DNA from: Sphaerolaimus hirsutus
Taxonomy: Eukaryota > Nematoda > Chromadorea > Monhysterida > Sphaerolaimidae
Length of the DNA stretch: 64,000 nt
NCBI GenBank assembly: GCA_964036195.1
Contig: OZ038460.1
Location: 19,741,526-19,805,525 of the forward strand
Reading direction: 5' to 3'
The translations under genes and the position numbers were made by a program. Position 1 is the stretch's first letter. Every line of letters begins with the position of its first letter. The notes below the pieces were generated by a model. That model made no database searches, was not told the origin of the DNA, and saw only the letters and a program-made list of their open reading frames with translations. Positions 6,666 to 41,510 of this stretch are shown here, piece after piece.

Positions 6666-7283
6666 CGCTACACACACTAGTTTACTAATGAAATTTTTTT
6701 AAATTAGTAAACTCATAAATCAGTCTTGAACGCATTTGAGTTTAGTGTATTAGTTATTTTTTTCCCTCAGCCAACTACATTTTACGAAGGCGTAATTTCA
6801 GCAAACTTAAATCCCACTCAGGGGTCTCCTAGGGGGGGCTGGGGGGGGGGGCTGCCCCCCCCCAAATCCGCCAGCTACCTATCTATCTGGAGTGGTTTTT
6901 GAGATATTTTGCCCCAATTTTCGCTAAAAATCACCAATTTTCGCACCTTTTTATAGTTTTTCACCATCAAAATCGTGCTCTCCGGCTATATGCATGGTTA
7001 TATGCCTGTTTTTAGCCATTTTAAACCTACTTTTGCCACTTTTAACCGATTATTAGCGATTTTTTCCCATTTCGGACTTCTATGCACTGAAAAAACCTAT
7101 ATATTTAGCCCCCCCCAAGCCCCCCCCAGAAATTTTTTTCAGCTATCTATCTCTCCGGAGGAGCGATTTGCTATCTATCCAGCCCCCGCGAGGGCCAAAA
7201 TCTTGGAGACCCCTGATGCCACTCAAAGTTGATTTTTGAGTTTACTAAATGGTTAGCTTACTGTGAGTAAACTATTGTGTGCA
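6666..7283. mobile_element. MITE sharing ends with 17-kb element
   Basis: Position 6673-6685 is CACACTAGTTTAC, identical over 13 bases to the right end of the 23.5-40.8 kb element. The far end (7267-7279) is CACAATAGTTTAC on the minus strand, 12 of 13 matching. An unrelated repeat (AGCTATCTATCT blocks, about 6.83-7.21 kb) is inserted within it. Confidence 0.65.
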
Positions 7284-7910
7284 GCTATAAAGCCATTAAA
7301 AAGTTTGTATGGAACCGAATAATTGGATTCAGTTCTGGACTCATTAGAAGTTGAATGAACGATACGTAATGAAATAATTATGAAAAGAGAAACGTAAATC
7401 GCACAAATGGCATAAATATGATGATAAAGACAGATAAAATGAGATGAGTGTCCCATGAGAATGAAAAAAAGCGAAATAATAAAAACAAATAAAATGCTAA
7501 TAGACACACAAAAAAACACAGAAAAAATCCACACAACACTGCAAGCCCCTCACACATCAAAAAACCCTCAAAAAATCTGAAACACCCCGTAAAACCCATT
7601 TCAATCAATATACCACCACAAAATCAGGTACTTACATAAATACAAGCTGAGGCAAACAGAACGGAACCCCCAAACATTTGCAACGCAAGCGTAATGTAAT
7701 AAAAATCATCAGGGGGTGAGCACATGCAACATGAGCTCATGTTTAATATAGCCGAACGGGTTCCAGGGGTCACCAACACCAGGGGCCAGTTCCAATTTGA
7801 ACGTAAGAGACGCCCATTTTGTCGGGCGGCCCGATTATTTTATCGACAAATGAGTGATGTTCAACTTGTAAAAGTGCTCTATACTATGTATGGTATTCGA
7901 AAGGTTATAT

Positions 7911-8110
7911 CAGGTGGCAGTCCCAAGCCCTGTAAAGTGTAAAGTAAAGTGTCAAATGTAAAGTAAAGTGTCAAATGTAAAGTCAAATGCAAAGTAAACT
8001 GTCAATTGTCATGCAAAGTTCAGTAATAAAATCTTTTCTTTTTTGTTTTGATTCACACTTTACATTTGACACTTTACTTTACACTTTACAGGGCTTGGGA
8101 CTGCCCCCAG
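7911..8110. mobile_element. MITE, GGCAGTCCC family, best-defined copy
   Basis: Ends are CAGGTGGCAGTCCCAAGCCC and the complementary GGGCTTGGGACTGCCCCCAG, flanked by ATAT on both sides. The interior is repeated GTAAAGTGTCAAATGT-type sequence in inverted order. The left end contains CAG|GTGGC and the right end CCCCCAG|, i.e. splice-like dinucleotides in the element's own termini. Confidence 0.85.
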
Positions 8111-11333: not shown

Positions 11334-13501
11334 CTAAAACACATGTCTACACAGGGGGCAAGTACTCTGGTCGCTGGTAGTAAACCATTTATATAAACAG
11401 GCATTATGAAACTTATTATGGCATCTTCTACAGGCGACATTAGGAAGTCGATAATTATTTGCGTGAATCAACATCATGCAAATCGAGCACTCTGTACCCC
11501 CGGATAAATATTTGTCCAGTGAAGATTTCCACATTGAGAGCGCCGTGCATAATCGACCATTCTGAGTAGAGGGGATGTTTGTTGGCAAATTGCCAAAAAT
11601 GCGAAAAAAAAGTTGAAATTCGGATTGGATTGGGAATTAATAGTGAGCAATCAGTGGCGAACTGGTCAAAAACAAAAACAAATAAAAAAAACCTGTTTTG
11701 TATTCTACTATTTTCAGTGGTCAATTGTTCGAAAATTCATCGTCAAGAGACAAGAAAACAGTTAAATTTTTCTATACGATGGCTTTCGTAAAATTTATAA
11801 GATTTTACACCAGCGGCGATATTACATAATCACGCCTAGCGGCTAAATAAATACCTCTTAGTTTTATAAAACTTCCTATTCAAAAAAATCGATAGCGGAT
11901 AAAACTGCAAATGCGTGCGAAATGCGACTTTATTTCTCTCGATTTTACAAGATTCACGCATTGCATTGCATGTAAATATTTGCACTTTAACAATTTTGCC
12001 AATTCAGTCTACACGCACAGACAAAAACAAATCAAAATTCAGCATTCAGGGGGCAGTCCCGCACCCTGTAAACAGTTAGTATAGTCTCAAATTGTCATGT
12101 AAAATGTCAATTAAAAAAGACGCGATATTGTCACCAAACCTTCGACATTTTGCGTGACATTTGACAAATTTAAGCCAGTTTGCATGATATTTGACACTCT
12201 ACTATACAATTTACTGAGTGCGGGACTGCCGCCTGAATCCCAAATCAACCCAACCTGATGCGTCAAAAACACGTTCAACTGAAGTAGCCATTTTCTAGTA
12301 ACATCCCTCTGCGCTGAGACAGTCTTGTCAATTTCACTGGAAACGGAAACAGGCGTCAACGGGTAGTCAGGCGCCAGGGACATTTTTAGCCCCAATTTGC
12401 AGTCATCGTGAATGTAATTGGCACTTAATTCCCGCACTATTGACCGCACTTGGATCTGGGTTGGGGGGGGGGGGGGTGAAAGTGTGAGGAATAGAAAAAG
12501 TGATAAAAACAAAATAAAAAACATACCTCAAGACCAGTTAATTTTTCACTAGTAGCCGCATTTCGAACGGAATTCAATTCGTCAGTGCAAATTGTCGGGC
12601 TGACATATTTGGTTACAAATCTGCAAAAAATGATATATTGTGACGGCATGCTCCAGCAGTTATAAATTTGCCAATCAGTGAAAAACGATTGAAAACCCAC
12701 TTGGAAATCTCCACTGCATCGGCTCTATTTTGATTCACGTACCAATTTCTGACAAGCGCAGGCAGCACAGCCATCGCACTGATACACAATCCAAGCGCCG
12801 CCCTTTGAAACATCAAAATTGCGGGTTCAGGAAAACTCTGGCCAATTAGCATTTCGCAGGGCTCGCACTCGCTTGCTGATTGGCTGGAGAGCACAACAGA
12901 AGGCAGGGACTGGGGGAGTGCGCCAAACAGGTCGTCCATTAAGTTGTGCAATTGCTTTTCATCTTGCAAAAGTTTTGTGACAGCTGGCCGACTTTCAGCG
13001 GATAATTGCCTGAATGTGTGGGAGTTAAGACTTGATGGTTTTGGATGTTTGCCAAAATCACTTTCGTGTAAATATAATATAGTGCAACCAACTGAATGTA
13101 ATTCAGCAATAAATTCCACAAATGCACATAAGCCATGGGAATTTCACATTGACCTTTAATATCGACATCACTTTGCAACACTGGCAGAATCGTGAGAAAT
13201 TGCTCCCTGGGCCCACTTAGCGATGTCAAAATGAAATTAGTATAGGCCGCATTACTCGCTGAAGTTTCATCGCACTTCTGAACATCGATTTCAGCCGTTT
13301 CATCAGCATTTCGTTTCGAATCTATTTCGGCGATTTGCGCTGTGTACCTGAAATCGGGGACACTTTTTGGCATTATTCCAAGTTTGACACAAACGGTACA
13401 CTAACATAGAAAGCAATGAGTAGGCGGCTCGTCCCACAACTTTTGGACCACTCAACAATTGGACACAGCGCACAATGACCATCTGCAGCCACTCTGGATA
13501 T
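11334..13501 (-). CDS. LTN1: Listerin E3 ubiquitin ligase, C-terminal exons
   Basis: Listerin is the RING E3 ligase of ribosome-associated quality control; it marks nascent chains stuck on 60S subunits for degradation. Six exons join in frame: 13348-13501 (partial start), 13154-13277, 12701-13091, 12527-12620, 12255-12455 and 11334-11561, about 396 residues plus TAG. Introns are 70, 62, 80, 71 and 693 bp, the last holding a MITE. The final exon encodes the listerin C-terminal C4HC3 RING: CSIC, then CRRCHNKFHNACLYKWF, then CPLCRHVF at the very end of the protein. This matches my memory of animal listerins, in which the RING is C-terminal. The preceding exon (ANYIHDDCKLGL, DYPLTPVSV, LQLNVFLTHQ) fits the RWD region. 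The 13092-13153 intron uses the weak donor GTCAAT. Upstream exons of this usually ~1,700-residue protein were not found; MITEs begin at 13527. Confidence 0.9.
12047..12235. mobile_element. MITE in last listerin intron
   Basis: Ends CAGGGGGCAGTCCCGCACCC and, reversed, CAGGCGGCAGTCCCGCACTC. It lies 20 bp inside the 3' side of the donor-proximal end of intron 11562-12254 and does not disturb either splice site. Confidence 0.85.
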
Positions 13502-23333: not shown

Positions 23334-23544
23334 GTAAGTGAATTTGGTCTATTTGTAGAATGTCAATGCACTATTTCTGGACAATATGTCTTCTATTACT
23401 CCAGTGGAGATGTGAAAGCGCCATGGCACCGGCACCTGGCACTAGCGCCAAAACAAAATGTGTGTCATTCAATTGAGGGTGTACTTGTTAATATAAATAG
23501 AAAGCGCCATTTTGTTAATTATTAGAATGTGCAATGTGGCTGTA

Positions 23545-23557
23545 CACGCTAGTTTAC
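23545..23557 (+). repeat. Left terminal inverted repeat
   Basis: CACGCTAGTTTAC; identical to 33324-33336 and differing at one base from the right end. Preceded by GGCTGTA. Confidence 0.65.
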
Positions 23558-23565
23558 CAACACGG

Positions 23566-23633
23566 CACGTCGATCAAAAATGTAAACTGAAACGCGACGC
23601 GTCGCGCGTCGGTTTACATTTTTGATCGACGTG
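23566..23633. repeat. 22-bp hairpin near left end
   Basis: Perfect 22-bp arms (23566-23587 and 23612-23633; CACGTCGATCAAAAATGTAAAC and its complement, given here in two parts as CACGTCGATC + AAAAATGTAAAC) flank a 24-nt loop rich in GCGACGCGTCGC. Further palindromic GCGACGCGTCGC units follow at about 23698-23815. Confidence 0.95.
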
Positions 23634-24148
23634 TGTACTTTAGTTTACGTTGGTGTTTCACTTTCTGGGGTTAGTGGTTTCGGCAAGTCACAAAAGTGCG
23701 ACGCGTCGCACGATTACACACAAATGTGACACAGCTGGGTAAACTGGAAGTGACAATTATGCGACGCGTCGCTTTCGTCGCGCGACGCGTCGTATGCGAC
23801 TCGCGACGCGTCGTACAGCCAAAAATAAGGAAGGATTTATTCCCCGAGACTTATCAGGTGAGCAGTAAACTAATTTTTTTAGACTTTTCAAATTCCCTAA
23901 CGTATCTTTGTTGCGAAACGTAGACAATTTAGACGTGACAATTACGTTTGTGTGTGTCTGCTAACATTTGTTCTTTATCGTGACTGTTGATATTTCGTTT
24001 TTTATCGTGACTGTTGATAATTCGTTTTTGTTACTTTTTACTTCAATTTACAAATTGAAATCTACTCAACCGATTTATTGCGTGATTTCATCATGTTGTT
24101 ACGGATAGAAAAATTAAAGATTACATGGACACTTGATTTGTATGGAAG

Positions 24149-24366
24149 TTCGACAAAAAGAAATGCAAGGAAGTGCGACAAAAAAAATGCAAACTTTGTA
24201 CTCGCTAATTTTCAATTTAAATCTAAAACTGTAAAAAGAAATTATTCTCCTTCTCGTTTCGACAAAAAGAAATGCAAGGAAGTGCGACAAAAAAAATGCA
24301 AACTTTGTACTCGCCAATTTTCAATTTAAATCTAAAACTGTAAAAAGAAATCATTCTCCTTCTCGC
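24149..24366. repeat. 109-bp tandem duplication
   Basis: Two direct copies, beginning TTCGACAAAAAGAAATGC at about 24149 and 24258, nearly identical. They give a false open frame of 83 residues. The duplication lies in the untranscribed or 3' flanking part of the element. Confidence 0.9.
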
Positions 24367-24910
24367 TGTAACAAAAACTAAGAAAAAACAAAAACAAGAC
24401 TATATTGCTGTTGACAAGAGTTACACTTTTGAGCAAAATTTAAAACTTGTTTACCTATCTCAGAATGCGAAATTTGACAATTGTATACGGAAGAAACTAA
24501 AAAAGTACATAACGTTTTCACTTTGAAATGTGATAATTTGCGAATGATTGAAATGTTACAAAAAAAGGAACTGGATGAAAACGTAAAATGATAAGAAACT
24601 GCGTTAAAACGTATTCACTACTTTCAGCACTTTCACATGACTGAAGCCTTCTGTGCATGTAAACCCAGTGTGCATGTGGACCCTAATTTTAACTCAAATT
24701 CGACAATTTCCATAACTTTTTATCTATTTTCACCTTTGAAACCACTAGTCCATGTGTTTTATTTTTAAGAACTATCAATTGCTCAAGAGGAGTCTACCAA
24801 ATCCCCTGGAGCCTCGTGGAAAGTCAACATGTAGAATACCGCTGACATGCACATGGGGTAAACATGCACAGAGGCACACGCCCCTTTCACATTACCAAAA
24901 AAAACACATT

Positions 24911-27900
24911 TCAATCATCAAAATCCTCCAGTTCCTCGTAATAGTCTTCATTGGTCGCCTGAGAATGTGTGCAATTTCAGTATACTGTTCTATTTTTTTA
25001 AATTTTTAGAAGTAAACAGTTTACATCTGTGAACATCTGTAATGGTAAACTTATAGAAAACTTTCCAACTGTTTCCCAGAAATATATATGCACACTGGGG
25101 AACTGTACATATCAATTACTGTAGAAATACTAAAGTCTAGTAGACACTGCACATTGAAACATGTACAACACCGAAAACCACAATTGAACCGAATACGTAC
25201 CACAAGTTGTTTGGCGTAGCGCTCCTCATCTAAAGGGCAATTGCGCGGCCTCGTACCGGCACGCGATTGGCGGATCGGCTGTGGCACGGTAGGGCGCTGT
25301 TCACTGGTCGGCGGCAGTTTGCTTGTCTGCACATTTTCATACTGTAAACATAGATTACAGTACGAAGCAAAATATCGAAGCAATTTTCTATCCTAACCGT
25401 TTCGTTCCCGGCAGCCGCTTGCTCATTCTTCTTTGCACTTTTGTGCGCGCTGGCCGGGGAACTGGCAGCAGTCTGATTCTGAGTTTATATTATCAGTTTA
25501 TAATGGCAACAAAGTTGTACAACAGAAGCACTGCAGACGGAAACTTACTGTCAGGCGGTACCGCTTCGCAGCACATTCTGTGTCCGGTACAGGCTGGCCA
25601 GTGCGTTTCTGGGCACTTTGCGGCAGTACGACGCCATCGTCGTTCTCGCAGTCCATTTCAGCGGGCTGTAAAAAAGCGGATAGAATTTACTTGCTTCTTA
25701 ACACTGAATTATAAGTAGGAAAAAAACAGAAACTGTCAGTCACCTCGGCATACTGCAGCTGTTGATGCTGCCGCTGCGGCGCCTGCGATGCCACAAACGA
25801 GTACGTGATGCCGTCTTCAGTGGCATCCACCTGGTGGCACAACTGCAAATATACATGAGAAATTTCAATTTGCATATGGTATTGCATATGAAGAAGTAAT
25901 GAAATGTCTTACTAACGTTAACATTTTGCAGGGCTTGCTGCAAGTGCTTCACCTCAAACCGGGTCGCCTCAAGCTTGGCAGCCAGGGCAACCTCGGAAGC
26001 CTGCCTTTGCATCAAGTGTGCGGCGATGGTCGTCGCTGTGTTCACATTCACCGGTGACGTGTACGGCAAACTCGGTGCTTGCACGTTCTGTTGCGGAGTG
26101 GGCAATTTCTGCACGGTGTGCAATTTGCCCTTTTCCGTCGGCACGGATTTCTTGGCTTTTTTCATAGACCCGGCAAGTTGGTCCAGTTGTTGCGTCGGCT
26201 GTAAGTACGATATGTCACTTTATCATAATCATAAATAAATGCACTACTACAAATAAGTACCACTGTGCACACTGATTTACCGAAATATGTATAAGAATGT
26301 GTAAATTGGATTTGATCAAAAGTAACAAGAAGTAAATCTTTTAAATTACACATTTTCAATTTACCAAAAGATGCATCTTAAGTAGTTTGTTGACACAAAA
26401 GAAAGAGTGCAATCCTCACAATTTGAGCCAGGTATTGTACCAGACTGTCATCTTGGTCCGGTTCGGCAACTTTCGCCTCCTGCTGCGGAAACGCAAAGTT
26501 GCCCGGGATTGTTTTCTGATGTAAGTAACATTAGTAGTTAGTACAGGGTTGTTAGTTACATGCTGTTTACGTACATCATGAAACACCACCGTTATACTCA
26601 CCTGCACCGGCGTGACGTTGTAGTCCATTTCCACGTTCTTTTGCGGCGCGGCGAGGGGCGACACAATGAGCCCGCTGGTCCTGCGGCGGCGGCGTTCGAG
26701 CAGCGCACTGCCAGACGGATTGGCAGGCGGAGCCGCAACGATCGGCAAACTGGTCGTTCCAGTATGGGCAGATTCCTACGAAAAGTGAACATCATTTACG
26801 AAACGTTTCAAGTAAATTACTTTTTCCTACTTTTAAGTGGTGACGTTGAGATACATTCAAGGCAACAGTCCCGAAAACACACACACTCCATCCACGAAAT
26901 GTTTATCAATCAAATAACCTGGTTCATGATGAAGTCCTTGATCATGTCACAGAACTTGTTCAGATCGGCCTTCAGCAGCGTGTTGATGACGCCGATTTCC
27001 TGCTGCACCACGCCGATGAACCGTATGTTGTTGATGAACAAGCAAATGCAGGGCAGTTTGCTGCGCTTCACGCTGTTCGCATTCACGCTTGTGCTCTGCA
27101 AATTAGCACATTTGAAAGATATGGTAGAATTGACTGAATACATGACAATAAAGAATAGTTTACCGATTGGGTGCACTGCGACAGCATACTTTCCATATTT
27201 AGGCGCATTGCACGAATCGCTGCAACATCCATCTTGTCGATAATGGGCGCGCACTGTTGCAGCACGCTGTGAAACTGGGGGTTTGTCAGCTGCTCGTGCA
27301 CGCGGCATGTCTGGCGGTGGTTACGGCAATGTAAAAAAGTGTATATTTAAAACGGAAAATAAAACTAAAATGGTCAAAACGTAACACTTAACAACAACAA
27401 TTTACTATTACACTTTAACGTTAACACAAAGTACATTTTTCTTCACTCCTTACAATTTTCCTGTTACATTCATGCAACTTGCACCTGGTTGTTGTCCTGC
27501 ACCATGATGGGCACGTTGTCCTGCGCCATGATGGGCGCGTTGTCCTGCGCCATGTCGGGCGCGTTGTCCTGCGCCATGATGGGCGCGTTGTCCTGCGCCA
27601 TGTCGGGCGCCTTGTGAAAGTCCTCCGGCGGTGGGCTATCGACCGTTTGCACCGTCCCTGGCGCGGGGGGAACGGCACTCGCAGCCTGTTTAACTCGGTA
27701 ATCCACGAGTTGCACTGCCATACTTTGCGGCTCCAATTTCTCCGGCGTGAACGTGGTTTTCACCAATTTGCCGAGCATGATGTAGAAGTTTCCCTGGCAC
27801 ACGTTGTGCCAGTAAACTTGCATTGCCCGGCGCCAATCGGTCGCTGTAAAGTGCACAACCACTGCTACAAACGTACAAACATAAAAACAACATTAAATGA

Positions 27901-30900
27901 TACATTTCAGTAAACCAACATCTACTGGCCTTTCCCTCTTTGAACACAATCATGGGCATGGTGGAGAACTGGATCATTTCTTCCGCCAGTTGCATAGCCT
28001 GGGCCTCCGATTGCCGCATTTGGTGCACCAGGGTAAAAACGATGTCCGCCTTCAAGTCGTTTCGCACCTTGTCCAACTCGATTTTCCACGCGTAGTGCCC
28101 CAGCTCGCGCCGGCTGATCTGAATAAACGTGTTGAAAAGGTTAGTACTGTTCCCCAAACTGTGATAATTCACTGACGCAAGGCTTATCTGAATCAACCTC
28201 GGGCAGTTCTCCTGGCTTCACTTTCGGAATGGCGGCTTTTTGTTCAGCGGTGCGGCCCTGACTGCGCAGGCGTTCCACGATGTCGGGAAACACTGAGTAG
28301 TTGTACCATTTTTGCGTAATGCAAATGCGAAGTTTACATCTACATGGCCCGGAAAGGGTAAACTCACCGGACTTGTCTGCATAGTAGTCCATGTGCTTCA
28401 GAGTCGCGAAATTGAGCTCCATGATCTTCTTGTAGTAGTGCGCCCCGAGGTCCTCGTTTGACACGCCGCTCAGACGGCCGCCGTAAAGTATGCGCGCTTG
28501 GGTCAACGCTCTCTGAAAGGACAGTGAAACAGTGTTACGTGTACGGTGTAAAACAAAGTTGCTTACTTAAAACTGAAAGTAAAAGATTGTTTTCACTTGC
28601 TGTAAAACGGAAACTGAAAGCTATTTGCACTTGCACAAAAACAAATACTGCGAAATGTTTTGCACTTGCCAGAAAAGGGAAACAGATACATTTCCCGCAC
28701 TTGCCGTAAAACGGCATACAGAAATTTGACACAGCAGTACTCATCAACTGTAAACTGAGAAGTCTAAAACATGGTTAACCTTGAACTGCCGCTTTTTTGT
28801 GTCCCACATCGACTGCAACATGCTGCGGCGGGCCACCAGAGCGTCCTGGTTTGTTTTGGCGGACTCGTTCGCCACCTCGTGGGTCAACCACATCTTGTTG
28901 TTGGGGTAGTTGTCGTACGGGGGCTCAAAGTAGCTCTCCCTTGTGAAGTTGTTCCACGACCTGTTCACCGCCGGGTGATCGGACTGCTGAAAAAATAAAT
29001 GAAAGAATGGTTACAGAAAGGAATCTTTAACTCTCAAATGAAAGTAAGCAGTAAACTGCAACTAACGTTTGTTTGCCTTTCCGGGTGATGCAGGTCGTAC
29101 TTGGTGCACTCCTTCATGCTCCAGCACCTGGGAGTAATGTACATGTTCACAACGTCCATTTACTTGTGTGATAAAAAAATACAAACAGAATTCTGGAACA
29201 GCTCATGGAACTTCTCCCAGAATTCTTCTGATTTCTCGGCCGGAATCAGCACGCTCGGCCGGCCTCCGACGCCGACGCGGCTCACATCGCCGGTAATCTG
29301 AGGTCACTCACACACCGTCTTAACTGTCCAGTATACTGTTTCCAGCCATGCACGTTTGTAAATATCCTGTTAAATACAGGTAGCCTTCCGGCTAACCGTT
29401 TTATCATGATATTGTACGAATTGCAAGGCAAGCAACAGTTTACATTTACTTGCAGACGGTGTGTGACTGTCACCGGTTTTTTCGTTTTTTTCCCGGCCAC
29501 TTTCAGCTTGCTCGGGCGCTTTTCAGTCTTTGACTGGGCCACCGCCAGCGACCGCTCATCGTCATCGGATGGCGTTTGCGACCCGTCGTTGGGCCCGCGG
29601 CCGCGCGGCCCCAACGGATTCATTTCCTGAGTTACGGGAGGTATGTGAGATTGTCACATAACTGAGTATGTATGGGAAAGTCACAATTATGCATGATCCC
29701 GAACTATCCAAACCGAAGGGGTCCGAATCGTAAGCTACCTCTTGGTCATCATCCTCCTGGGTGAAGTCCTCCACCCAGTCCTTGTCCTTCTGTGGATTGT
29801 CCTTGTCCACTTGGCCATCCTGAAGCTGTTTCAGTTGCTTCGTGGCATTCACGCGAGAGCGGCGCACGCTGCTGTTGGTGCGGCGGATGACTGGCACTTG
29901 CTGTATACAAGAAAGTGCTACTGTAAATGCAAACTCTTCTTTTGAAAATGCCAAAAACGGTCATTTAAACGTGCCACTTTAGCGACCTGTGCAGCCAGCG
30001 CCCTCGTTTGCTCCTCCAGTCTCTTGGCATTTTCCTTCCTCCGCCTTTCCATTTCCACGTCCACTGCGCTCGGTGGCGACTTGGCGGTCTGACTGTACCG
30101 CGGCGTGATGAAGTCGTCATCATCGTTCTGCAGTTTACAATGCTAAGTTTACTGTTTCATGTAAAGAGAACTTAAAAAGAAGTTTACTACATCTGCGCAT
30201 GCACATGGTAAACTGCAAACTTTGTGCTTGTAGGCATTCATAAATGTGTTTGGAACGGATTGCAGTTTACTTGAATGAGTTATGCCCCAGTAATTGTGTT
30301 TGACATATACATTATTTTGGTGAACTGACATGCATTCAAAGCCAATTTATGACGTTTCCAGCACACAGTTTGCAGTTCAGCGTGTGTACCCAAGTTAAAT
30401 TAACCTCCCAGTTGTCCCACTTCACCTTGGCGCGCACATTTTCTTTTTTCACGCGTTCTTTGTGCAGGCTCCTTTTGCTTTTGGACGCCTTGCTCTTCAG
30501 CGCCACGTGTCGCTCGTACTCGAGCTTTGCCTGAGAGATATTTCAAAGTAGTGTTTTGCAGTGACAATTACACAGTGTTTGACAAAACCGGGTGTTTCAA
30601 ATTCATGTATACAGCAAGACTCGCTGGTGGATTTTAGAACGGTACAAATCGTGGAATGTGTCTATATAGTTACTGCTTGAAAGATGAAAGGTGTGGGTTC
30701 AAGCAAATCATGTTTACTGTGAGAACCCATATCCCGTGAAAGTCTGGGGTTTGGCATTCCCGATCCCCATCCCGATCCCCATCCCCATCCCGATCCCTTC
30801 TAAGTAAATTCCGTTTTAACCGTACTGAAAATAACACACTGTTTTTAAACACAGTGTGTTCCAAATAGAGGATGCATTGATGTTCTAGCAACCCATAGCA

Positions 30901-33900
30901 ACGCTAGGTTTGCTAGAGTGTTTTGAATGGTAGAAATAGTGCAACATGTGTATATAGTTACTGCTTGAAACATGATAGATGTGGGTTCAAGTCCCTATCC
31001 CGATCCCCATTCGTATGCCGATCCCAATCCCAATCCCTATCCCGATCCCAATCCCCATCCCGATCCCAATCTCGATCCCCATCCCGATAAGTAAATTCCC
31101 TTTGAACCGTATTGAAAATAACACACTGTTTTTAACACAGTGTGTTCAAAATATTGGGAAGCTTGCAGTGTGGGCCTACACACAACTCACTTGAATCTCC
31201 ATTTGTATTGTAGGAATAGTGGAATGTGTGTATATAATGTGTGCTTGAAACATGAAAGAAGCGGGTTCAAGCAAATCACGTTTACTGTGAGGAACGTGAT
31301 TCCCATCCCGATCCCGATCCCCATCCGTATGCCGATTCCCATGCCCATCCCGATCCCAATCCCGATCCCGATCCCGAAAACTCTATCCCCTTTGAATCCT
31401 ACTGACAATGACACACTGTTTAACTACAGTGCGTTTCAAATAAATTTTTGCTGTAATATTTTCATGTAAATACACGAATATTTCCAGATTTATAGTGTTT
31501 TGCTGTATGGAAGAAATCGTGCAAGGTGTCTACAGTGTGTGCTTGAAACATGAAAGATTTGGGTTCAAGCCAAAAATGTCCGAAACATTTAAACGTTAGA
31601 ATGACACACGGTTGTTAAAAACCGCGTGTTTCAAATAATGAAGGTAACTCAACCTGTCAACTGCACACAGGTATTTTTGGCATGACATTCATGTGTACAG
31701 TGCGTGCTTGAAACATGAATGATGTGGGTTCAAGCAAAAAATGTCCAAAATTTAAATGTCCAAAATTTAAATGTCCAAAAGTCAAACGTCACCTTCTCAG
31801 TCAGCGTCAGATCATACTCCGATGGCGGGCGGGCAGTCTGAAAAAAATTTAAAGTCGGAAGTGCGCACACGTCTAACGTGTCATACAACAGAAAAAAAGC
31901 AGTATGCCTAGCCTAACTGAACAACTTAATTCACTGGCAGTTGGGAACAAGAGCGAAATGTTGCAGCAAGGGCAGCAATCCAGCGGGCCTTACGCTGCGC
32001 AACAGTCGCAGTCCGATTTCAGTCGCACTTTCTCACATGGTCAGATACGCGGCATGTTCCAGTTTCCCGCCACAACGAACACCTCAGCCTACCCCTTTCC
32101 ACCACCGCCCCCAAACAGGTGCTTGTGTACACATTTCAGTATCGTTTCTCTAAAGCTACCTGCCTATCAAGAACCAATTAAAATTTAAACAGCACATTCT
32201 AATAAAGAATGTGCTCCAAATAGTGACGTATGATCGTTTTGGACAAGGATTTACGCAACAACATTCTGCTTGAGACTGCCACCAAACACTAAAAATGCAT
32301 GCCATCATCATTTTCCCTGAAACATGACATTAGCGGGTTTCACTTTTCACACTGCTAAATGCTTTTTGTGATTGCAGGTGCAGCAAACAGTTCTTATGTG
32401 ATAAGGTTTGTGTATGAGAAAATGTAACAGTGTGTACACAAGCACAGTTTTCGTTTTCTGGTACCCGGTGCGTCTACACCCAATCAAACAACACAAGTGC
32501 AAAGCGGAACTTCAGTGTCCACAGCGGAAGGCATGAGTATTGACAGGAGTGAGGAGGATGCAGGCCCCAGAATGACACCATTTCAAGCTGTTAGTTTACA
32601 GTGCGGTAAAAACTGACCATGTTGACAAAAATTTGTCAAAGTTGATCACATGTTATTCTTCAAGAAATACGGTTTTTTTCCATTTCTTTCAAAATGCAGA
32701 TGGATGAGCTCATCAACTTCACAAAAACCACCGAGAACAACATCGTACACGTGAACACGCAAGTGCAGAAACTGGTGAACACAGTGAACCAGTTTACGGG
32801 CAAGATGCATATGGCCAGTAAAGCTACGGAGGTTCTGTTGGAACACACTAAGTTGCTCGAAAAGAAAGAGAAGGCTTATGAGCTCATGGTGACAGAGCTC
32901 GTTCCGCGTGACCTGCAGCGTACCCATCCTGTCAATCGCTACATGTGAAACACTGAACCAACTGATTCCCCCCTTTTATACAGAGAACTGTGATGTTCAG
33001 AAAGTACTGCTTAAAAGTGAACCGTTCTTGTAATAAATGTCTCGGAAAGCACAACAGAACTGCAAACTCACTTTACTATTGTCAAAATTCAAATTTCGCT
33101 TCACGTCGGACGCTGTGGGCGTGGCTCTGTCAGCGGGTTTGCCCGGCGGTGCGGTCCGGACAGGCTCGGCGGGCTTGGCGGGCTCGGCGGGCGTGTCGGG
33201 CTCGGCATTATCGGGTGGGTTCTGGTTATCCGCCCACCACGGAACACGATGCTCTACAGCCTGAAAAAATGAGAAATGTTGAAAGAATTTTGCATTAGAG
33301 AAAGCTGTAAAGTAGCGCATGCACACGCTAGTTTACTGCCACATGTAGGTAAACTGATAAAGCAGCTTTGAACGCATTTCAGTTCACTGAAATGGTTTAT
33401 TCATTGACTGCAGTTGCCAGAGACATCATTGTATGAAACGCAAATGCGTTATAAGTTGAGGTATCAGTTTACATAAATGTTGTGGTAAAGTAGTGTGTGC
33501 ATGACCATTAGTACAACAGAAGCTGGATTACAGGGAAGCTAACTAACACCAAAGAATGACACCAAAAATGAGGGAAAAAAGTATAGATGGTGCATGTACT
33601 TCAGCAATGTACATGCTTAAGAATTAGTTGAAATCAGAATCCACCTTCCTTTCACCAACACTGGGAAAGTGCACAGTTAATAGTCCTAGAAGCTACAAAA
33701 AACTTTAAATGGTAAGTGCCACTTACAGTTAAACTTACACTGTCAAACGGCCTACCTGCCATTCAGAAAGTTATTCGAAAAAAGTTAACAGTAAAATGGT
33801 AAACAGTGTCGGGCTAACAATATCCATCAGGCGACGCGGAAGCGAATTTGTGCGGTGGTAAATTGGAAAGGGTGCAAACAGGCCCGGTGTCCTCGTCGTG

Positions 33901-35892
33901 TGCCGAATCCAATTGTCGTCACCGGGACCCGAGTGAACCCAGCCCTGACCCTTGTCCAAAACATCTGCAGAAAAGAGCACGTTACAATGAATGTTTCGTT
34001 TCCATGTTAAACTGACAGTTAGAAAAGAGTACCGTCTTTGTACATGGCCGGCAACGGGGTAGTGCACGTGGGCATGAACAACTTGTTCCGGATTTCTTGC
34101 AGGGTCTGCGAAATAGGAGAAACATTTTGAGAAAATGTTTTGCAAAAGGAACTTAGCCATGTATAATTTTTTAAATACAAAATTATAAAATCAGAGCAGT
34201 TTAAGCGAGTTTCGATTCAGCCAATGTAATTCTCACTTTTTAAGAAACAATTAAAATTTTAAGACAGTGAAAAAGTGGGCATTTTGATGGCTGAAAAATA
34301 TATATATGGAACACACTGATACATTTTTGATTCCAAGAATATACACCTTTCTAAGAACCAATTAAAATTGTCAGCCAGTGAAACAGTGAGAAATTTGATG
34401 GCTGAAAAATATATATATGGAACAGACAGAGACATTTTTGATTCCATCAATCTACACCTTTCTAAGAACCAATTAAAATTGTCAGCCAGTGAAACAGTGA
34501 GAAATTTGATGGCTGAAAAATATATATATGGAACAGACAGAGACATTTTCGATTCCATCAATCTACACCTTTCTAAGAACCAATTAAAATTGTCAGCCAG
34601 TGAAACAGTGAGAATTTTGATGGCTGAAAAATATATATATGGCACACACTGAGACATTTTTGATTCCAACTTCTGATGCATGAGGTGAACAATTTTGAAA
34701 ACAGAAACATGGGAAAAGTGATTTTACAGAAAGATTTTGGTACAACAAAAATTTAAATATGGAACCCACTTAGACATTTTTTGATTCCAAACATACCTGC
34801 AGAATGTGCAAAATTTTCAAAACAGAAACATGGTGAAATTTTATTTCACATGAAAGATTTTGGTTATACACAAATATAAAAATGGAAGCCACTTAGACAC
34901 TTTCGATTCCAACGGAATATGCAGAAGGTGAAAAATTTTCAAAAGAGAAACATGTGAAAAATGGATCTCACATGAAACATTTTGGTTGAACAAAACTATA
35001 TATGGAACCCTGTCAGACACTTTTTGATTTCACACATATACGCAGAGTTTGCCAAAACTTAGAAACGGAATTATGGGAAAAAGTCATTTTACATGACCGA
35101 TTTTTGGTATAACAAAAATATAAATATGAGCCCATTTCCCTACTTTTTTGATTAGTATACGTCTCCATATTTCACCAAAAAACCATTTCACCGTACTGAA
35201 CTAACTTCGGCGGTGATTGTGCCCTTCACCTTCTGCACGCCACTGCTTTTCGGCTGACGATCAGTGCGCTTATCTGGCACAATCGGATCGCTATACTGAA
35301 ATACGTAAGAGTACATCTATTGAAGAATTTACAAAACTGAACATTCTTATATTGAAACTTCCACATACTTAAAATTTACATTTAACGAAAACAAAGTGCA
35401 AAAAGGATGAAAGTAAAGAAGTAAACTTACTTCATTCAGAGCGGCAGTTCTGTACTCGCACGTCCTGTTGTGCTCCTCCCTCAAGCGCTTCTTTTCCGCA
35501 ATCTTCCCGGGGCTGTCCGGCGGAATTGGTAGGCCGGCCTCCATCGCCGCGCGCGCTTCCCCATCCTGCAACACATTCAGAAACGTCTAAAACATGTCTC
35601 AAGAACACTGAAAAAATTCTTACTGAAAGTAAACTAACGTAAATACCGTGACACCGCGGCTTGTCACAAATGAAGAGCGGCCACTTTCGCTTGGGCTTCT
35701 CGGCTGCGGCAGCGTCTTGGCCAACTGTCGGCGTCAAAGGTTTGGCCTTCTCGGCTGTGGCAGTGTCTTGGCAAACTGTCGGCGTCGGGGACCGGGAACC
35801 CCCGACAACGACAGTTTTCATTTTCAGTTTCTTCTGTTGCACGGGCGCCGGCAATTCCTTGGCGGGCGGTACGACTGCCGCGGGTACGTGTT

Positions 35893-35934
<42 letters not shown>

Positions 35935-37189
35935 ACACGGAAGCCGTAGTGCTTGCAGCGGGTGCAACCACTGCGGACGGCACAAGGGGACCACCGTACA
36001 CGTTCGTGGCTGCCGCACGTGCCTGCCGTTGCAGCTCCTGCTGCAAAGTGACAGTGTGTGTGTGTGATCAAACTATCAGTTTACATCTACATTTTACATA
36101 ATGGGTAAAAGGTGCTACAGTATGTCTGTCACAGTGTGCAAAGTTACACTGTCATGGCAACATCAGTTTACATCTACTTTTTACATAAGTGGTGAAAACA
36201 GCAACAGTAGTTCACGTTGCGCAAACTTTCACAAAAGTGTACAGTGAGGTAATGCCGGAAAGAGAACGTATACAAATAAAGAAAAAATGACAAACCATTT
36301 TTTTCTCTTTCAATTGCAGCCTTTTCTGGTCTCTGCGCCGCTTCGCCCTGATTCTGTCATTTTCCAACTTTCTCAGCCTTCTTTGCTCCTCCATCGACAA
36401 TTTCTGCTGGCGCGCTCTTTCCTGCTCCTCCAAACGGTCACCGTCAGCGGGGACTTCCGGCTCAGCCGGAGACTCCTGACTCGCGAACAAATCCTGAAAA
36501 GGAACATTGTGTACACTTTTGACACGGTGGAAAGAGAATTCCGCATAGTTGAAACAAATGAAATGTGAGTTTATGAAAAAGCACAGAAGTTTGCTAAATT
36601 AGAGCTGAATTTAGACAAATTTCAAATAAAGAATCAACTGTGTGTGTGTAGAAAAAGTTCAGAAACCCGTACAAATATAAGTAGCAAACCTGCGACAAAA
36701 CCCTGCCAAACGAATGTGCGAGGTGATCGTCAGGGACAAGCACGCGCTGCGGCTCGGAAATGTCGCGCTGAGAACTCTGCGCGGCCTGCCCTCTGGTGCG
36801 CATGTTTGTTCCTCGGCCGCGCACGGGCGGTCCAGTTGGAACGGTCTGAAGTGGGGCAAACGATTTGTAAACATTGGTTGGCTTATCTTGGATTGTAAAT
36901 ATCGCGTTGGCTTGTAAACATTCGCAAATTGTAGATAAATTGGCAGCTGTCCAAAACACACTTGTACTCAAACAAAAATGATAACTAGAAAACGCATGAA
37001 AAGAAATGGTAAGATAACCAAAGAAATCGGATGAGTAACCTGTTCTGGGGGCTGGCTCTCAGTTTTCTGCTTTGGCGGCCGTCCACCTTTGTTTCCATTT
37101 TTGCCTTTGCCGCCATCCGAAGTCGTTTCCGCGGTCGCGGAAACGTTTTGCGATCCGCCGCGCACCATACCACCCAAAGTTCGGACCAT
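24911..37189 (-). CDS. 31-exon cargo gene, unknown function, ~1,575 aa
   Basis: Exons (minus, high to low): 37040-37189, 36690-36845, 36296-36493, 35624-36040, 35431-35565, 35206-35295, 34033-34105, 33819-33964, 33072-33260, 31793-31837, 30405-30530, 29987-30127, 29739-29900, 29474-29626, 29187-29297, 29067-29127, 28780-28986, 28368-28512, 28198-28292, 27926-28118, 27485-27861, 27164-27310, 26919-27095, 26602-26775, 26420-26515, 25917-26198, 25744-25842, 25549-25665, 25398-25478, 25201-25341, 24911-24958. The ATG at 37189 has context AAAATGG; the TGA is followed by AATAAA at 24763-24758. All joins keep frame except exon 15-16, where the boundary is unresolved. No family was recognised. Visible: AT-hook-like GGRPPKQK (residues 35-42), a charged helix EEQRRLRKLENDRIRAKRRR near 137-156, Ala-Pro repeats, acidic and basic patches, six MAQDNAPI-like repeats near 1083-1123, and an acidic C-terminus (DYYEELEDFDD). 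No signal peptide or membrane segment, so probably nuclear or cytosolic (inference). Confidence 0.8.
30540..31790. repeat. Tandem ~300-bp units in intron 10
   Basis: Four to five degenerate units share ACACACTGTTTTTAAC / CACAGTGTGTT hairpins, TGCTTGAAACATGAAAGAT, GGGTTCAAGC and CCCGATCCCCATCCC runs. The last two units have lost the CCCGATCCC part. All of it lies inside intron 30531-31792 of the cargo gene. Confidence 0.85.
31904..32948 (+). CDS. Nested coiled-coil gene, unknown, 201 aa
   Basis: A plus-strand gene inside intron 9 (31838-33071) of the minus-strand cargo gene. Exons 31904-32118, 32448-32589 and 32700-32948 join in frame with GT-AG ends (AACAG|GTGCTT, CACAG|T, AAGCT|GTTAGT, ATGCAG|A). 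TGA at 32946-32948 is followed 84 bases later by AATAAA (33032-33037), still inside the intron. The N-terminal half is Gln/Ser/Pro-rich (QQGQQSSGPYAAQQSQ, then PFPPPPPN). The C-terminal 82 residues lack proline until the end and show heptad spacing (NIVHVNTQVQKLVNTVNQF, LLEHTKLLEKKEKAYEL), a likely coiled coil. An optional 28-bp exon at 32378-32405 also fits phase but would leave a 37-bp intron. No known family; a Myb/SANT domain, the usual second Harbinger protein, is not apparent. Function unknown. Confidence 0.7.
33315..33506. mobile_element. MITE inside giant element, same ends
   Basis: Left ATGCACACGCTAGTTTACTG (CACGCTAGTTTAC at 33324-33336) and right, reversed, ATGCACACACTACTTTACC. It lies within intron 33261-33818 of the cargo gene. 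The ends match those of the 17-kb element, so it could be a non-autonomous relative that was inserted into it. Confidence 0.75.
34250..34680. repeat. 111-bp tandem repeat, intron 6
   Basis: Units start CTAAGAACCAATTAAAATTG at 34351, 34462 and 34573, with a diverged copy before the first; spacing is exactly 111 bp. Decayed copies (TGGAACCCACTTAGACATTTT) continue to about 35160. Because 111 is a multiple of three, both strands show long false open frames. Confidence 0.93.
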
Positions 37190-37440
37190 TTTCGACGCGA
37201 AATCAATCGAACGGTCTATTTTTGACTTTTCCACAAAATTTTCACTTTTTATTTCTTATCTGTGACAGATATGGATTTGTGACAAAAAAAAGTGACACGT
37301 CGTGATACAATTTTATGTTATTCATGGTTACTTTTTTTAATCACATGTTTCATTTCTGGCTATATGCCAGAAATGTCTGGCATATGGCCAGAAATCTGAA
37401 ATATTGATTGACAAAAACTGTCCCCAAAAAACGTTTCAAA
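37190..37440. promoter_or_regulatory. Divergent promoter of transposase and cargo gene
   Basis: The 251 bp between the two ATGs contains no coding sequence. It holds three spaced (T/A)GTGACA heptamers (37261-37267, 37278-37284, 37291-37297) and the 19-bp inverted repeat at 37352-37395. Shared control of both genes is inferred from the arrangement. Confidence 0.7.
37352..37395. promoter_or_regulatory. 19-bp inverted repeat, candidate operator
   Basis: Left arm ATTTCTGGCTATATGCCAG (37352-37370) and right arm 37377-37395 are reverse complements at 18 of 19 positions, with spacer AAATGT. It lies 46 bp before the transposase ATG. Each arm is itself near-palindromic (CTGGC..GCCAG). It could be a binding site for the transposase or a partner, or a hairpin in the 5' leader. 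Confidence 0.75.
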
Positions 37441-39931
37441 ATGGCGCACGATGAATCCGTTTTGGGACAAATGCAAAGAATGAACGAAGCGCTAGAGCGG
37501 AATTTGGATGGAACTGCGCCACTAACGCACAATCAGAAGAGACAAATATTAGCCGCTTTTTTGGCAGTCGGGAACACATTGTTTTCGTATGATGTGGACA
37601 ACGACGACGAAGAACAAGAGCAGGAACAGCAGAATGCCGCGCATGAACAGGGTGATCAGGGCAGGAAAAAGTACATGACACCGTATTTACTAGAAAGGGC
37701 GCGCTCCAGGGGCAATTACTGGCGAGCTGTTATTGCTGGCAAGAACACCGATCCAGCATGGTTTTACAAACTGTGCAGGGTTTGTTGTTTCACAATTTCT
37801 GTTATTTACGTAAAATATACAGACGTATATAACATCACTTACTGTGTTGTGACGTTTTCATGTTATTGTTTACAACAACATTGCAATCGAACAGTAAACT
37901 GATATGTATGAATGAACTCAGTTTACCGATAACGTTCACAATGATTACAAATTAATTACAGCTGTGGCCAACTGAATTCGAACAGCTGCACGCGATGCTT
38001 ACAGCTGTCGACCCTGAAACTGGTGAACAGTACCTGAGAACACGAGATGAAAGAAGACACATCGCTGTAGTGACAACAGAAATGCGACTGTTTTACTTTC
38101 TGTATACATGCGCAAACGGCCGGGAAGTTGAAGATTGTGCCGACCAGTCACAGGTGATACCATTTTTCATGCTTTTAGATTGCTTTATAGTTCATTGTAT
38201 TTTGGAAAAACATTTACAGATTTCCGGCGCTACGATTAGAACGATTATTGACGAAGTGTCCACCAGAATAGTGAAAGTTTTGAAGGACCACTTGAAACCT
38301 ATGGGGAGTGATTTAGGGCAAATGAAAGATTTCGCGCAGCAATACTGGAAACTGTGGCAGATGCCGAACTGTGTGGGGAGTCTGGATGGCAAACACATCC
38401 GTATTCGCAAACCCGCTGGTAAGTACATATCATTTTACGCATTCTATTTTTGCCCTCATGTGTGTTGTTTCCAGTAAACATAAACATGGTGAGTCGTATG
38501 CAACGTCACGGTAAACTAAGCGTCGCATTTGCGACGCTTGCGACGCTTGCGACGCGTGCGTCGCCTTCAATCAGAAATAGTCGCCAGTTTACCAAGGTTG
38601 CAAATTTTTTTGTGAAAACGTCGCTTTTCGTCGCATTTTGCGTCGCAAATGTCGCAAAATCGTCGCTTTTGCTTGAGTTTAACCGCAACCCCCACCGATT
38701 TCAAAGTAACTTCATTTGGGTCATGGGAATGTTGTGCAAATGATTTTTGGATGTACTTGTAGAGAAAAAAATTGCGCTTCTTCTGACGTACCTGGCTTCT
38801 CATAAAAGTTATCTAAAAAAAAGTTATGATTTTTTTTAAAAAAGGGCTAAATTGCGCGACGAAATGGCGACGGTCTGGCGACGGTCTGGCGACTGTAGAA
38901 AAATGACTAAATTCACAGTGATGGGAAACTGTGCAGTGAGGTGGAAATATTTACAGTTACAAAAGTAAATGAAAAACGCCTTGCAGAGGGTGGAACGAGG
39001 TACTGGTGCTACAAGGGCTTCTCGTCGATTATACTGTTCATCAGCGCCAGCGCGGATTTGAAAATTCAGTACGTGGACATCGGTATGCCGGGGTCACAAG
39101 CAGATGGTGCTGTGCTGATCACGTCTGATTTCGGGCAGGATTTGATGTGAGTTTACATCCTTTTTGACATGTTCCAATGAGGTGCTATACATTTACACAT
39201 GATAAAAGTGATACATTTACACAGACATGGCAGAATGCTGATGGCGCCACCCTGCTTGCTGCCCGGTGCAGATGCCAACGAACCTGCAAATACCATTCTG
39301 AGTTATTTTGTGGGTGATCAAGCGTTCGCGTTGCGCAAGTGGTGTATGGTGCCATATGCGCTGCATGCAGATGACAGCCAGCGACACTTCAACTATCGGT
39401 GTGTTTGAATATTCTGAAAGAAGCGTTGTTCGGTTAAACTGAAATCTAAATTTGACTGCAACTACTGCAGCTTATCCCGAGCTAGGCGCACTGTCGAATG
39501 CGTCTTTGGTATTTTGGCCAGCAGATGGCGCATACTGCTGACCTGTATCGCGATGGAACCGCCACGCGTACAAAGACTGGTTATGGCCTGTTGCCACCTG
39601 CACAATTGGCTGCGTGATATCCGCGGGGAAAGTGCTGCCAACCAATTTTATGAAAATGGCGATGAAAAACCACAAGACGACCCGAACAACACTGTTGAGC
39701 AAAATGTAAGTTTACCTTGCATATTCACTGTTACAATTCAACATCACATAAATTCATTCCCATACACAGCTGCAGTGGCGACCAGTGTACGACAACATGG
39801 ATACGATCGATAACGTGCCAATCCGAAGGGACGTTGACGAAAGAGATGTGCGCCCCATCAGGGATGCAATCAAGGAGTGGATGATGACAGACGCCGGTCG
39901 TGTTCCGTGGGTGAATCCCGCTGACTGCTGA
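37441..39931 (+). CDS. PIF/Harbinger (DDE_Tnp_4-like) transposase
   Basis: Seven exons (37441-37779, 37962-38153, 38220-38418, 38987-39146, 39225-39398, 39471-39705, 39770-39931) join with matching phases into 486 residues, ATG to TGA, without any stop or frameshift. Start context is CAAAATGG. The catalytic region follows the Harbinger pattern: first Asp in CVGSLDGKHIRI (D233), second in YVDIGMPGSQADG (D283), then FVGDQAFAL, and Glu in LSRARRTVECVFGIL (E364) followed by SRWRIL. A helix ISGATIRTIIDEV before the first Asp fits the family's helix-turn-helix. Harbinger transposases cut and paste DNA in the nucleus, usually with a helper DNA-binding protein. Intron 3 (38419-38986) contains a TTGCGACGC-rich inverted element. 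The gene looks intact and could still be active, or be a domesticated HARBI1-like gene; the flanking repeats favour a transposon. Confidence 0.93.
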
Positions 39932-40765
39932 ATTTGCAACTACGTTGAATATAAAAATCAAACTGAAATATTTCCGTTGCAGTGGCAGTTAGCATTAAAG
40001 TGGCACTGGAATGGTAAACTGATGTAACAAATACAAAAAATTCATTTTCATGCTATCTGCTACAGCTACACTTCATTTTTCGATTGCAACCGGTTATAAT
40101 GGTTGTTATGTCGTACACTGTCATTGAATGGACAATTTTCATTCACTATTTGATTTTTGGCTGATTTTTTCTTTTTTAATTGTGATTAAATCATAATTCG
40201 CAAAGTCTTTCGTTTCACGCCACGAAAAATTGTGTGATGTGTGCAGCTAATGTTCCTCTTTCATGTGTGATTTTTTTTTCCGGATTCGGGCTTTCCGTTC
40301 ATGTGCTAGTGATTTATTTGCGTTTAATTGAAATAAAATCATAAAAAATCGAAAGTTTATATTTCATGTCCGCTGTGTACACCAATCGATAGCGCAATGA
40401 AAAGTGATAATTTAGAACGTTTCAATAAACAAAAAAACGTAACAGGTGATTTTATAAAAATTTATTTCCACAAAAAAATGATAAATTCAATAAAAAATCC
40501 AATGTTGCACTTAAAAATATTTTAAAAATTTTGACAACATCTACACAACGTACTGTACACGATGACGCAAAAAAATTGCATAAACTATGCTCCGTTCTTC
40601 CACAATTAAAGAAATTAGAAATTTATGTTTACAGCGTAAATTCACATCACTGGCAAACTTGAAAAAAATAAAGATGGCGGCCTAAACTCCGCCCACTTTT
40701 ACTATGCGTGAATTTAGCCGGTAAACTAAAAAATTGAGTTTACCACCAGTAAACTGAAAACGCCA

Positions 40766-40778
40766 GTAAACTAGTGTG
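40766..40778 (-). repeat. Right terminal inverted repeat
   Basis: Minus strand CACACTAGTTTAC, identical to 6673-6685. The 60 bases inside it contain GTAAAC/GTTTAC four times, including the inverted pair GGTAAACT..AGTTTACC (40719-40744). Confidence 0.65.
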
Positions 40779-40780
40779 CA

Positions 40781-41510
40781 TGGGGCCAATACAGAGTATC
40801 TGGACAATATTTGTTTGATGGACAACTGTTCGATGTTTGATGTTTGATGTACGTAGGACTACAGGGTGATTTTTGCACACATAGTTCTAAGCACTAGGTA
40901 ATGGCGTGGCACCAGGACCAGACATCAAAATTGGCCCAGTGCCAGTGCCAGCACCAGCCGCTTTTGTACTGGGTGCCATGAAAAAGTGTCACAGTAGAAT
41001 AACTCCAAGCACAACAGCACATGGCTGTATTTGTTGTGGTGCTTGTCCAGGAGCCAGTGTCCAGATCAGGCTGTCCGGGAGGGGCACATACGTATGTGCC
41101 CCTGCATGTGCCCGGTATGTATGTTCCCCATATTTGGGAACATACATGTGATCAAATCAATGTATGTTTCCAGCTTCGGGCACATGCAACTTTTGAAAAA
41201 AGTGCATGTGCCCGCGCTTGGAAACATACACACATGTATGTTCCCGAAGATTTTGGGCACATACATTTGAGAAAAACGTGTATGTGCCCAGTTTGGGGAC
41301 CATACACAGAGAATTTTTTTTGCATGTTTCCAAATTGGGGAACATGCAACAGCAAATTATTTTGTGTTGATTCTATTCTATTGGCCGTTCAATTGGCTGC
41401 TGCTGTTCTGTTGTTATTAGTAGACGCAATCGATAAGCGATTAGGTGGCGCTAATCATTACGAGTCAAGTATACTCGGCGGTCAGCACACCTAGTATGAA
41501 AATCTAGCAT
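40781..41510. repeat. TGGCGCC-type fragment and GTATGTGCCC repeat
   Basis: A GGCACCAGG/CCAGTGCC-rich block lies at about 40905-40985. From about 41050 to 41350 is a repeat made of alternating TATGTTCCC..GGGAACATACA and TATGTGCCC..GGGCACATAC hairpins, opening with CAGGCTGTCCGGGAGGGG. The same element is present in opposite orientation at 44790-45065. Long open frames on both strands come from these palindromes. Confidence 0.8.

Follow-up and report, generated by a model that had tools for sequence, protein, structure and literature searches.

We identified a mobile element of 17,252 bp in a 64,000-nucleotide stretch of Sphaerolaimus hirsutus DNA (contig OZ038460.1, positions 19,741,526–19,805,525, in a 348-Mb genome). 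This whole stretch is called the window here, and coordinates are given in its own numbering. The element, assigned to family A, lies at 23,536–40,787, and the block is very probably one mobile unit with three genes, namely a DDE transposase, a divergently transcribed gene of 31 exons (the giant gene) and a small gene nested inside the latter. Overall, it is probably best explained as a recently active, Harbinger-like DNA transposon. Judged from gene content and order, the giant and nested genes look like standing parts of the transposon lineage, at least in family A and in a diverged second family, family B. Furthermore, a short word, AGTTTAC, runs through the non-coding DNA of the element and hardly varies between copies, and it is a putative and fairly probable binding site of an element protein.

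Boundaries and copies of the element

The borders of the element were placed by ends and a target-site duplication (TSD) pattern that are common to eight other copies. The left terminal repeat, GTGGCTGTACACGCTAGTTTAC (23,536–23,557, + strand), and the right terminal repeat (40,766–40,787, − strand) agree at 15 of 22 positions by hand count, and their inner nine positions (CTAGTTTAC) are identical. The element is flanked by AAT on the left (23,533–23,535) and on the right (40,788–40,790). An earlier reading of this DNA from its letters only, the sequence-only reading, had put the ends at 23,541 and 40,780; the borders thus shift by a few bases. Its report of miniature inverted-repeat transposable elements (MITEs) with the same ends held in part. 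A MITE-like sequence at about 6,668–7,283, with ends CACACTAGTTTACT..AGTAAACTATTGTGTG, contains a 14-bp match to the right end (6,673–6,686), and intron 8 of the giant gene harbours an inverted-repeat insertion (about 33,316–33,506) with ends similar to those of the element, but the 22-bp left end occurs only once in the window when up to three mismatches are allowed.

When the genome was searched with parts of the interval first proposed, its first 160 bases matched at 100% at all 40 scored places (265 candidates), and its last 181 bases matched at 98–100% at 40 of 40 (281 candidates). A stretch of the giant gene likewise matched at 97–100% at each of the 40 places scored (100 candidates). 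Ten candidates for full-length copies were picked where left-end and giant-gene matches lay 6 kb apart, and both ends were present in eight of the ten that were fetched. The right end was missing from the other two, one of which has the same left flank as the next copy, a local duplication, while the other contains 200 N. The nine two-ended copies, that of the window included, are 17,204–18,296 bp long and 97.4–99.9% identical, and their 30-nt flanks differ by eye. All nine are bounded by identical 3-bp TSDs (AAT in five, ATT in four) and have the same gene order. From these shared ends and perfect TSDs we concluded that the window element spans 23,536–40,787 and that the block moves as one. 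The sequence-only reading had supposed that one element mobilises the whole 17-kb block, and had proposed looking for further copies with the same ends and gene order and for a short target duplication; both were found. The full-length copies elsewhere also ruled out a chance assembly of adjacent repeats. In addition, a deletion derivative was found in another place (L007, 1,495–3,160), in which window position 24,677 is joined directly to 38,092, and which carries neither the giant gene nor the nested gene nor exon 1 of the transposase.

The three genes

Gene models were computed from the sequence with splice-site weights not fitted to the species; some very small, doubtful exons were deleted by hand, and single borders may therefore be off. 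The transposase gene has seven exons (37,441–39,931, + strand) and encodes 486 aa. It covers the whole DDE_Tnp_4 profile of Pfam (90.9 bits against a cut-off of 24.8, E 8.5e-26), in agreement with the Harbinger DDE transposase recognised earlier, and it is the only one of the three genes to pass a Pfam cut-off; no Mutator-type family was among its Pfam matches. The blocks SLDGKH, SQADG and VECVFG are common to the transposases of families A and B, and we take them to hold the catalytic D, D and E. The transposase frame is open in six of the nine copies, and its ratio of non-synonymous to synonymous differences (pN/pS) was 0.30 (0.36 CpG-masked) when ten pairs formed from five copies were pooled.

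The giant gene, predicted by a splice-aware model and backed by a homolog in family B, runs in the opposite direction (24,911–37,189, − strand) with 31 exons and 1,569 aa, close to the roughly 1,575 residues of the first reading. A spacer of about 250 bp (37,190–37,440 in these models), presumably a two-way promoter, separates it from the transposase. Its frame is open in seven of nine copies, and its pN/pS over the same pairs was 0.54 (0.56 CpG-masked). Between the nine copies its exons vary more than the non-coding DNA does, which CpG explains in part but not entirely. The family A protein had no Pfam match at E values up to 1. Two introns are rich in repeats: intron 6 (34,236–35,128) consists mostly of tandem repeats of 111 and about 122 bp, and intron 10 (30,640–31,780) holds several TCCCGA-rich arrays together with repeated GGGTTCAAGC stretches, which to us resemble a tRNA B box.

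The nested gene, also noticed in the sequence-only reading, was modelled with three exons (31,904–32,118, 32,448–32,589 and 32,700–32,948, + strand) and 201 aa, and it too has a family B homolog. It sits in intron 9 of the giant gene on the strand of the transposase, opposite to that of its host gene. Its product looks like a coiled coil by eye, and its frame is open in eight of nine copies. A Pfam scan, the one profile search made with this protein, gave sub-threshold matches only, the best being COG6_N (E 0.011, 16.3 bits against a cut-off of 27.4).

The AGTTTAC word and its conservation

AGTTTAC occurs at 39 dispersed sites between 23,551 and 40,772 (21 on the + and 18 on the − strand), with 37 sites in 10.5 kb of non-coding DNA and two in 6.8 kb of exons. 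The word forms the inner part of both terminal repeats and also runs through the introns. No other 7-mer of the element is as enriched: it is found 39 times, where a Markov estimate predicts 2.7 and the rate of the flanks 5.5, and 300 dinucleotide shuffles gave 2.6 on average and 8 at most. Counted in bins of 300 bp, it is present in 27 against an expected 2.6, which places it first among all 7-mers. The sequences around the sites are not related to one another (2 of 741 pairs exceed 60%), ruling out one small dispersed repeat as their source.

The sites are hardly ever altered in other copies. In the eight other full copies no AGTTTAC substitution was found, and one site was deleted in one copy. 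In 29 further, mostly partial copies, 222 of the 224 covered sites were intact, compared with 2,570 of 3,206 control 7-mers of the same composition, a contrast that is overstated because these controls contain CpG. For a second test across the full set of 37 other copies, the expected rates were matched for CpG, base and region. Three of 259 non-coding AGTTTAC columns were then variable against 16.4 expected (P 7e-5, approximate), and three cells in the sites were substituted against 87 expected. The word was also the most conserved of 57 frequent CpG-free 7-mers. As the signal remains at matched rates, we rejected the view that the conservation is a CpG artefact.

CpG positions change much faster than other C/G positions in the element. 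In nine aligned copies, 11.4% of them show transitions, against 1.5% for the remaining C/G positions, a 7.7-fold excess, from which element copies seem to have been methylated at some time. This pattern suggests that the host methylates element copies, so that there may be something to resist.

Besides a word that is read all along the element, two other explanations of AGTTTAC were weighed. The first, which is possible though clearly less probable than not, is that the sites serve transposition only, with the transposase or a partner binding the ends and the internal copies being spare or decoy sites that have no role in chromatin. The word stands in both terminal repeats and is dense there, with five sites in the first 340 bp and four in the last 70, and the Myb-like protein of Harbinger3_DR binds to a subterminal motif of 9 bp (PMC9710019). 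However, the interior sites are as frozen as those at the ends, which is unexpected for spare sites: variable columns numbered 0 against 2.3 expected at the left end, 0 against 8.6 in the interior and 3 against 5.5 at the right end.

The second explanation, a host transcription-factor site or a splicing signal, appears unlikely. A forkhead-like factor would be a candidate, as we take GTAAACT to resemble GTAAACA, and TGTTTAC is itself enriched (12 against 4.3 expected), but AGTTTAC outnumbers it three to one. Seven of the 39 sites overlap splice donors, and splicing may explain this minority; against a splicing signal, the orientation in the giant-gene introns is mixed (8 forward and 14 reverse by hand count), and sites also lie beyond the genes at both ends of the element. 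A binding site for an element protein is the reading that we prefer.

A second family and the linkage of the three genes

A search of the genome with the DDE_Tnp_4 profile gave at least 163 matches (150 of 306 candidates scored) and revealed family B, whose transposase is 54% identical to that of family A over 433 aligned residues. A homolog of the giant gene occupies the same divergent position, with 26% identity in a full-length alignment and with E values by exon of 2e-11, 8e-7 and 2.5e-4. Inside it, on the opposite strand, lies a homolog of the nested gene (42% identity over 85 aa, E 2.6e-17). The right end of family B abuts AAT in both copies seen. The model of its giant gene has two exons (7,342–7,951 in the family B sequence, not in window numbering) that are antisense to the nested gene and two more by a poly-C run, and it should be read as having about 27–30 exons.

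The genome was then searched with exon 17 of the family B giant gene, and all 122 candidates were scored. Fourteen places matched at 88–100% and 95 at 36–40%, the latter mostly of family A, while the remaining 13 lay at 29–51% and include further families. The matched stretch was without a stop at 121 of the 122 places, although the search may miss broken ones. A search with the nested gene gave 127 matches from 128 candidates. A nested gene was present within 8 kb at 107 of the 122 exon-17 places, always on the other strand and always to the same side; 15 exon-17 places had none within this distance, and 18 nested-gene matches had no giant-gene match nearby. A transposase lay within 16 kb at no fewer than 89 exon-17 places and all three genes stood together at 87 or more, both counts being lower bounds since the transposase places used for them were 104 picked by hand. 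Places outside these two families that have the giant–nested pair include C302 (together with a transposase), C7:1,898,761, C143 and C2:30,197,243. They also include four places of one further family, with no transposase within 16 kb among the 104 listed.

The order of the genes, kept in family B and at most giant-gene places, makes the two extra genes look like regular components of the transposon rather than passengers that it captured. The sequence-only reading had called them cargo, a term that these results do not bear out; it had also held that its proposal would fall if the gene pair were found together nowhere else, and further copies with the genes together were found. A host origin of the giant and nested genes as passengers on an ordinary Harbinger element, which might be supposed because neither protein is recognised as a known transposon family and the giant protein is only modestly constrained within family A, is very improbable given the three-gene order beside so diverged a transposase, the retention of the nested gene and the near absence of stops in exon 17, a recent capture being largely refuted and an old one remaining.

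Proposed mechanism

In the mechanism that we propose, the DDE transposase would cut and paste the 17-kb unit, as its domain, the intact ends and the TSDs lead us to expect. The giant and nested proteins would stand in for the short Myb-like partner and form part of the machinery. One of the element's own proteins, with the giant one as the likeliest candidate, would bind DNA at AGTTTAC, both in the terminal repeats and at some 30 sites in the interior, and the long element would thereby be coated or marked along its length. Such binding might either help to join ends that lie 17 kb apart or keep the chromatin of the element open, in which case it would act in the manner of VANC, a protein of the VANDAL transposons. 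The assignment of AGTTTAC binding to the giant protein is tentative and less probable than not. The boldest reading, and a rather unlikely one, is an anti-silencing or coating system independent of that of the VANDAL transposons, in which the giant protein would bind AGTTTAC element-wide and shield the element from host methylation, which would account for the roughly ninety copies of a 17-kb transposon.

Several observations, besides the overlap with splice donors, count against this mechanism. The giant proteins of families A and B had no significant match in Pfam, NCBIfam, PHROGs or the PDB (the last searched with a profile of both), and as neither accessory protein has a significant profile match, to connect the motif with the giant protein is a guess. 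Within family A the giant protein is modestly constrained: at 2.4% (1.4% CpG-masked), its pN does not fall below the non-coding divergence of 1.7% (1.2%), and its frame is broken in two of the five copies used for pN/pS. The odds are not altered by this, as the argument is built on families A and B. The nested gene shows too few changes for a pN/pS verdict. As to the word, the copies share ancestry and the P values are therefore approximate, with the direction alike in each copy set; columns beside the sites are also less variable than expected (23 against 33.5), and three of the 39 sites fall in the MITE-like insertion of intron 8. The CpG pattern shows that protection, if any, is incomplete. 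Finally, family B has no equally clear word. Its weak candidate, AGTTTTCA, which overlaps GTTTTCA of the family B end, occurs 13 times against 1.1 expected and is outside the top words by dispersion.

Other features of the window

Open frames on the minus strand at 11,334–13,143 presumably represent the RING end and the body of Listerin (LTN1), a host gene. Words such as CCCCCCTC, ATTTCGAG and CGAAATAC recur in many bins between 41,000 and 58,000 and are probably the ends of another small repeat family.

Comparison with known systems

The element is classed as Harbinger-like by its transposase and its 3-bp TSD. The TSD of canonical PIF/Harbinger elements follows the rule TWA. Since the search for a Myb partner gave none and its TSDs read AWT instead of TWA, the element is not a canonical two-gene Harbinger. 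With Harbinger3_DR, Ping/mPing and PIF it shares a DDE_Tnp_4-type transposase, a 3-bp TSD, more than one element gene and deletion derivatives. As described in PMC9179366 and PMC9710019, Harbinger elements have two open reading frames (ORFs), for a transposase and a Myb-like protein of about 300–400 aa, and the Harbinger3_DR partner is needed together with the transposase (PMC9710019, PMC2836001). Unlike these, the element described here is 17 kb long, its other two proteins have 1,569 and 201 aa, and its motif runs through the whole element. Its TSD is AWT in nine of nine copies, in contrast to the TAA/TTA given for mPing (PMC2836001). The terminal repeats measure 22 bp with 15 matches; a length of 25–50 bp is stated for canonical PIF/Harbinger (PMC9179366). 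No Pfam match to Myb, SANT or MADF was found in the giant or nested protein (E up to 1) or in the family B giant protein, although a very diverged domain is possible.

Partner genes vary within Harbinger-like elements, as ISL2EU and Spy show (PMC9179366). The present element differs from both: ISL2EU has a transposase and a YqaJ exonuclease, and most Spy elements are described with one ORF (PMC9179366), while YqaJ was not matched in the giant or nested protein in Pfam. Among the open-access papers listed in searches for giant, three-ORF, three-gene or intron-rich Harbinger elements, none described one in its title or abstract opening; Repbase or subscription papers may have one.

The closest likeness for the dispersed word is VANDAL21 of Arabidopsis, which is a Mutator-type transposon and thus of another class than the element here with its DDE_Tnp_4 transposase. 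According to PMC5735166, VANC21 binds YAGTATTAY, which is enriched in the non-coding parts of VANDAL21, introns included, and rare elsewhere, and VANC21 causes loss of methylation (PMC5735166, PMC10398659). Extra genes and a short word enriched in the non-coding DNA of the element, here with a putative binder, are common to both (PMC5735166). It speaks against a close likeness that VANC targets are dense and lie, all in one orientation, within fast-changing tandem repeats, whereas the AGTTTAC sites are dispersed, of mixed orientation and frozen, and that family B has no more than a weak candidate word.

The transposition of Harbinger elements is seen as the work of two proteins, and the lineage described here pairs an intron-rich gene of about 1,500 aa with a nested gene across diverged families. 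DNA transposons can thus carry large machinery that the profile libraries used do not recognise. What recognises or protects a long DNA transposon could be tested directly and cheaply on the frozen AGTTTAC sites along the body of the element; in plants this issue was raised, in the accounts of PMC5735166 and PMC10398659, by VANDAL and VANC.

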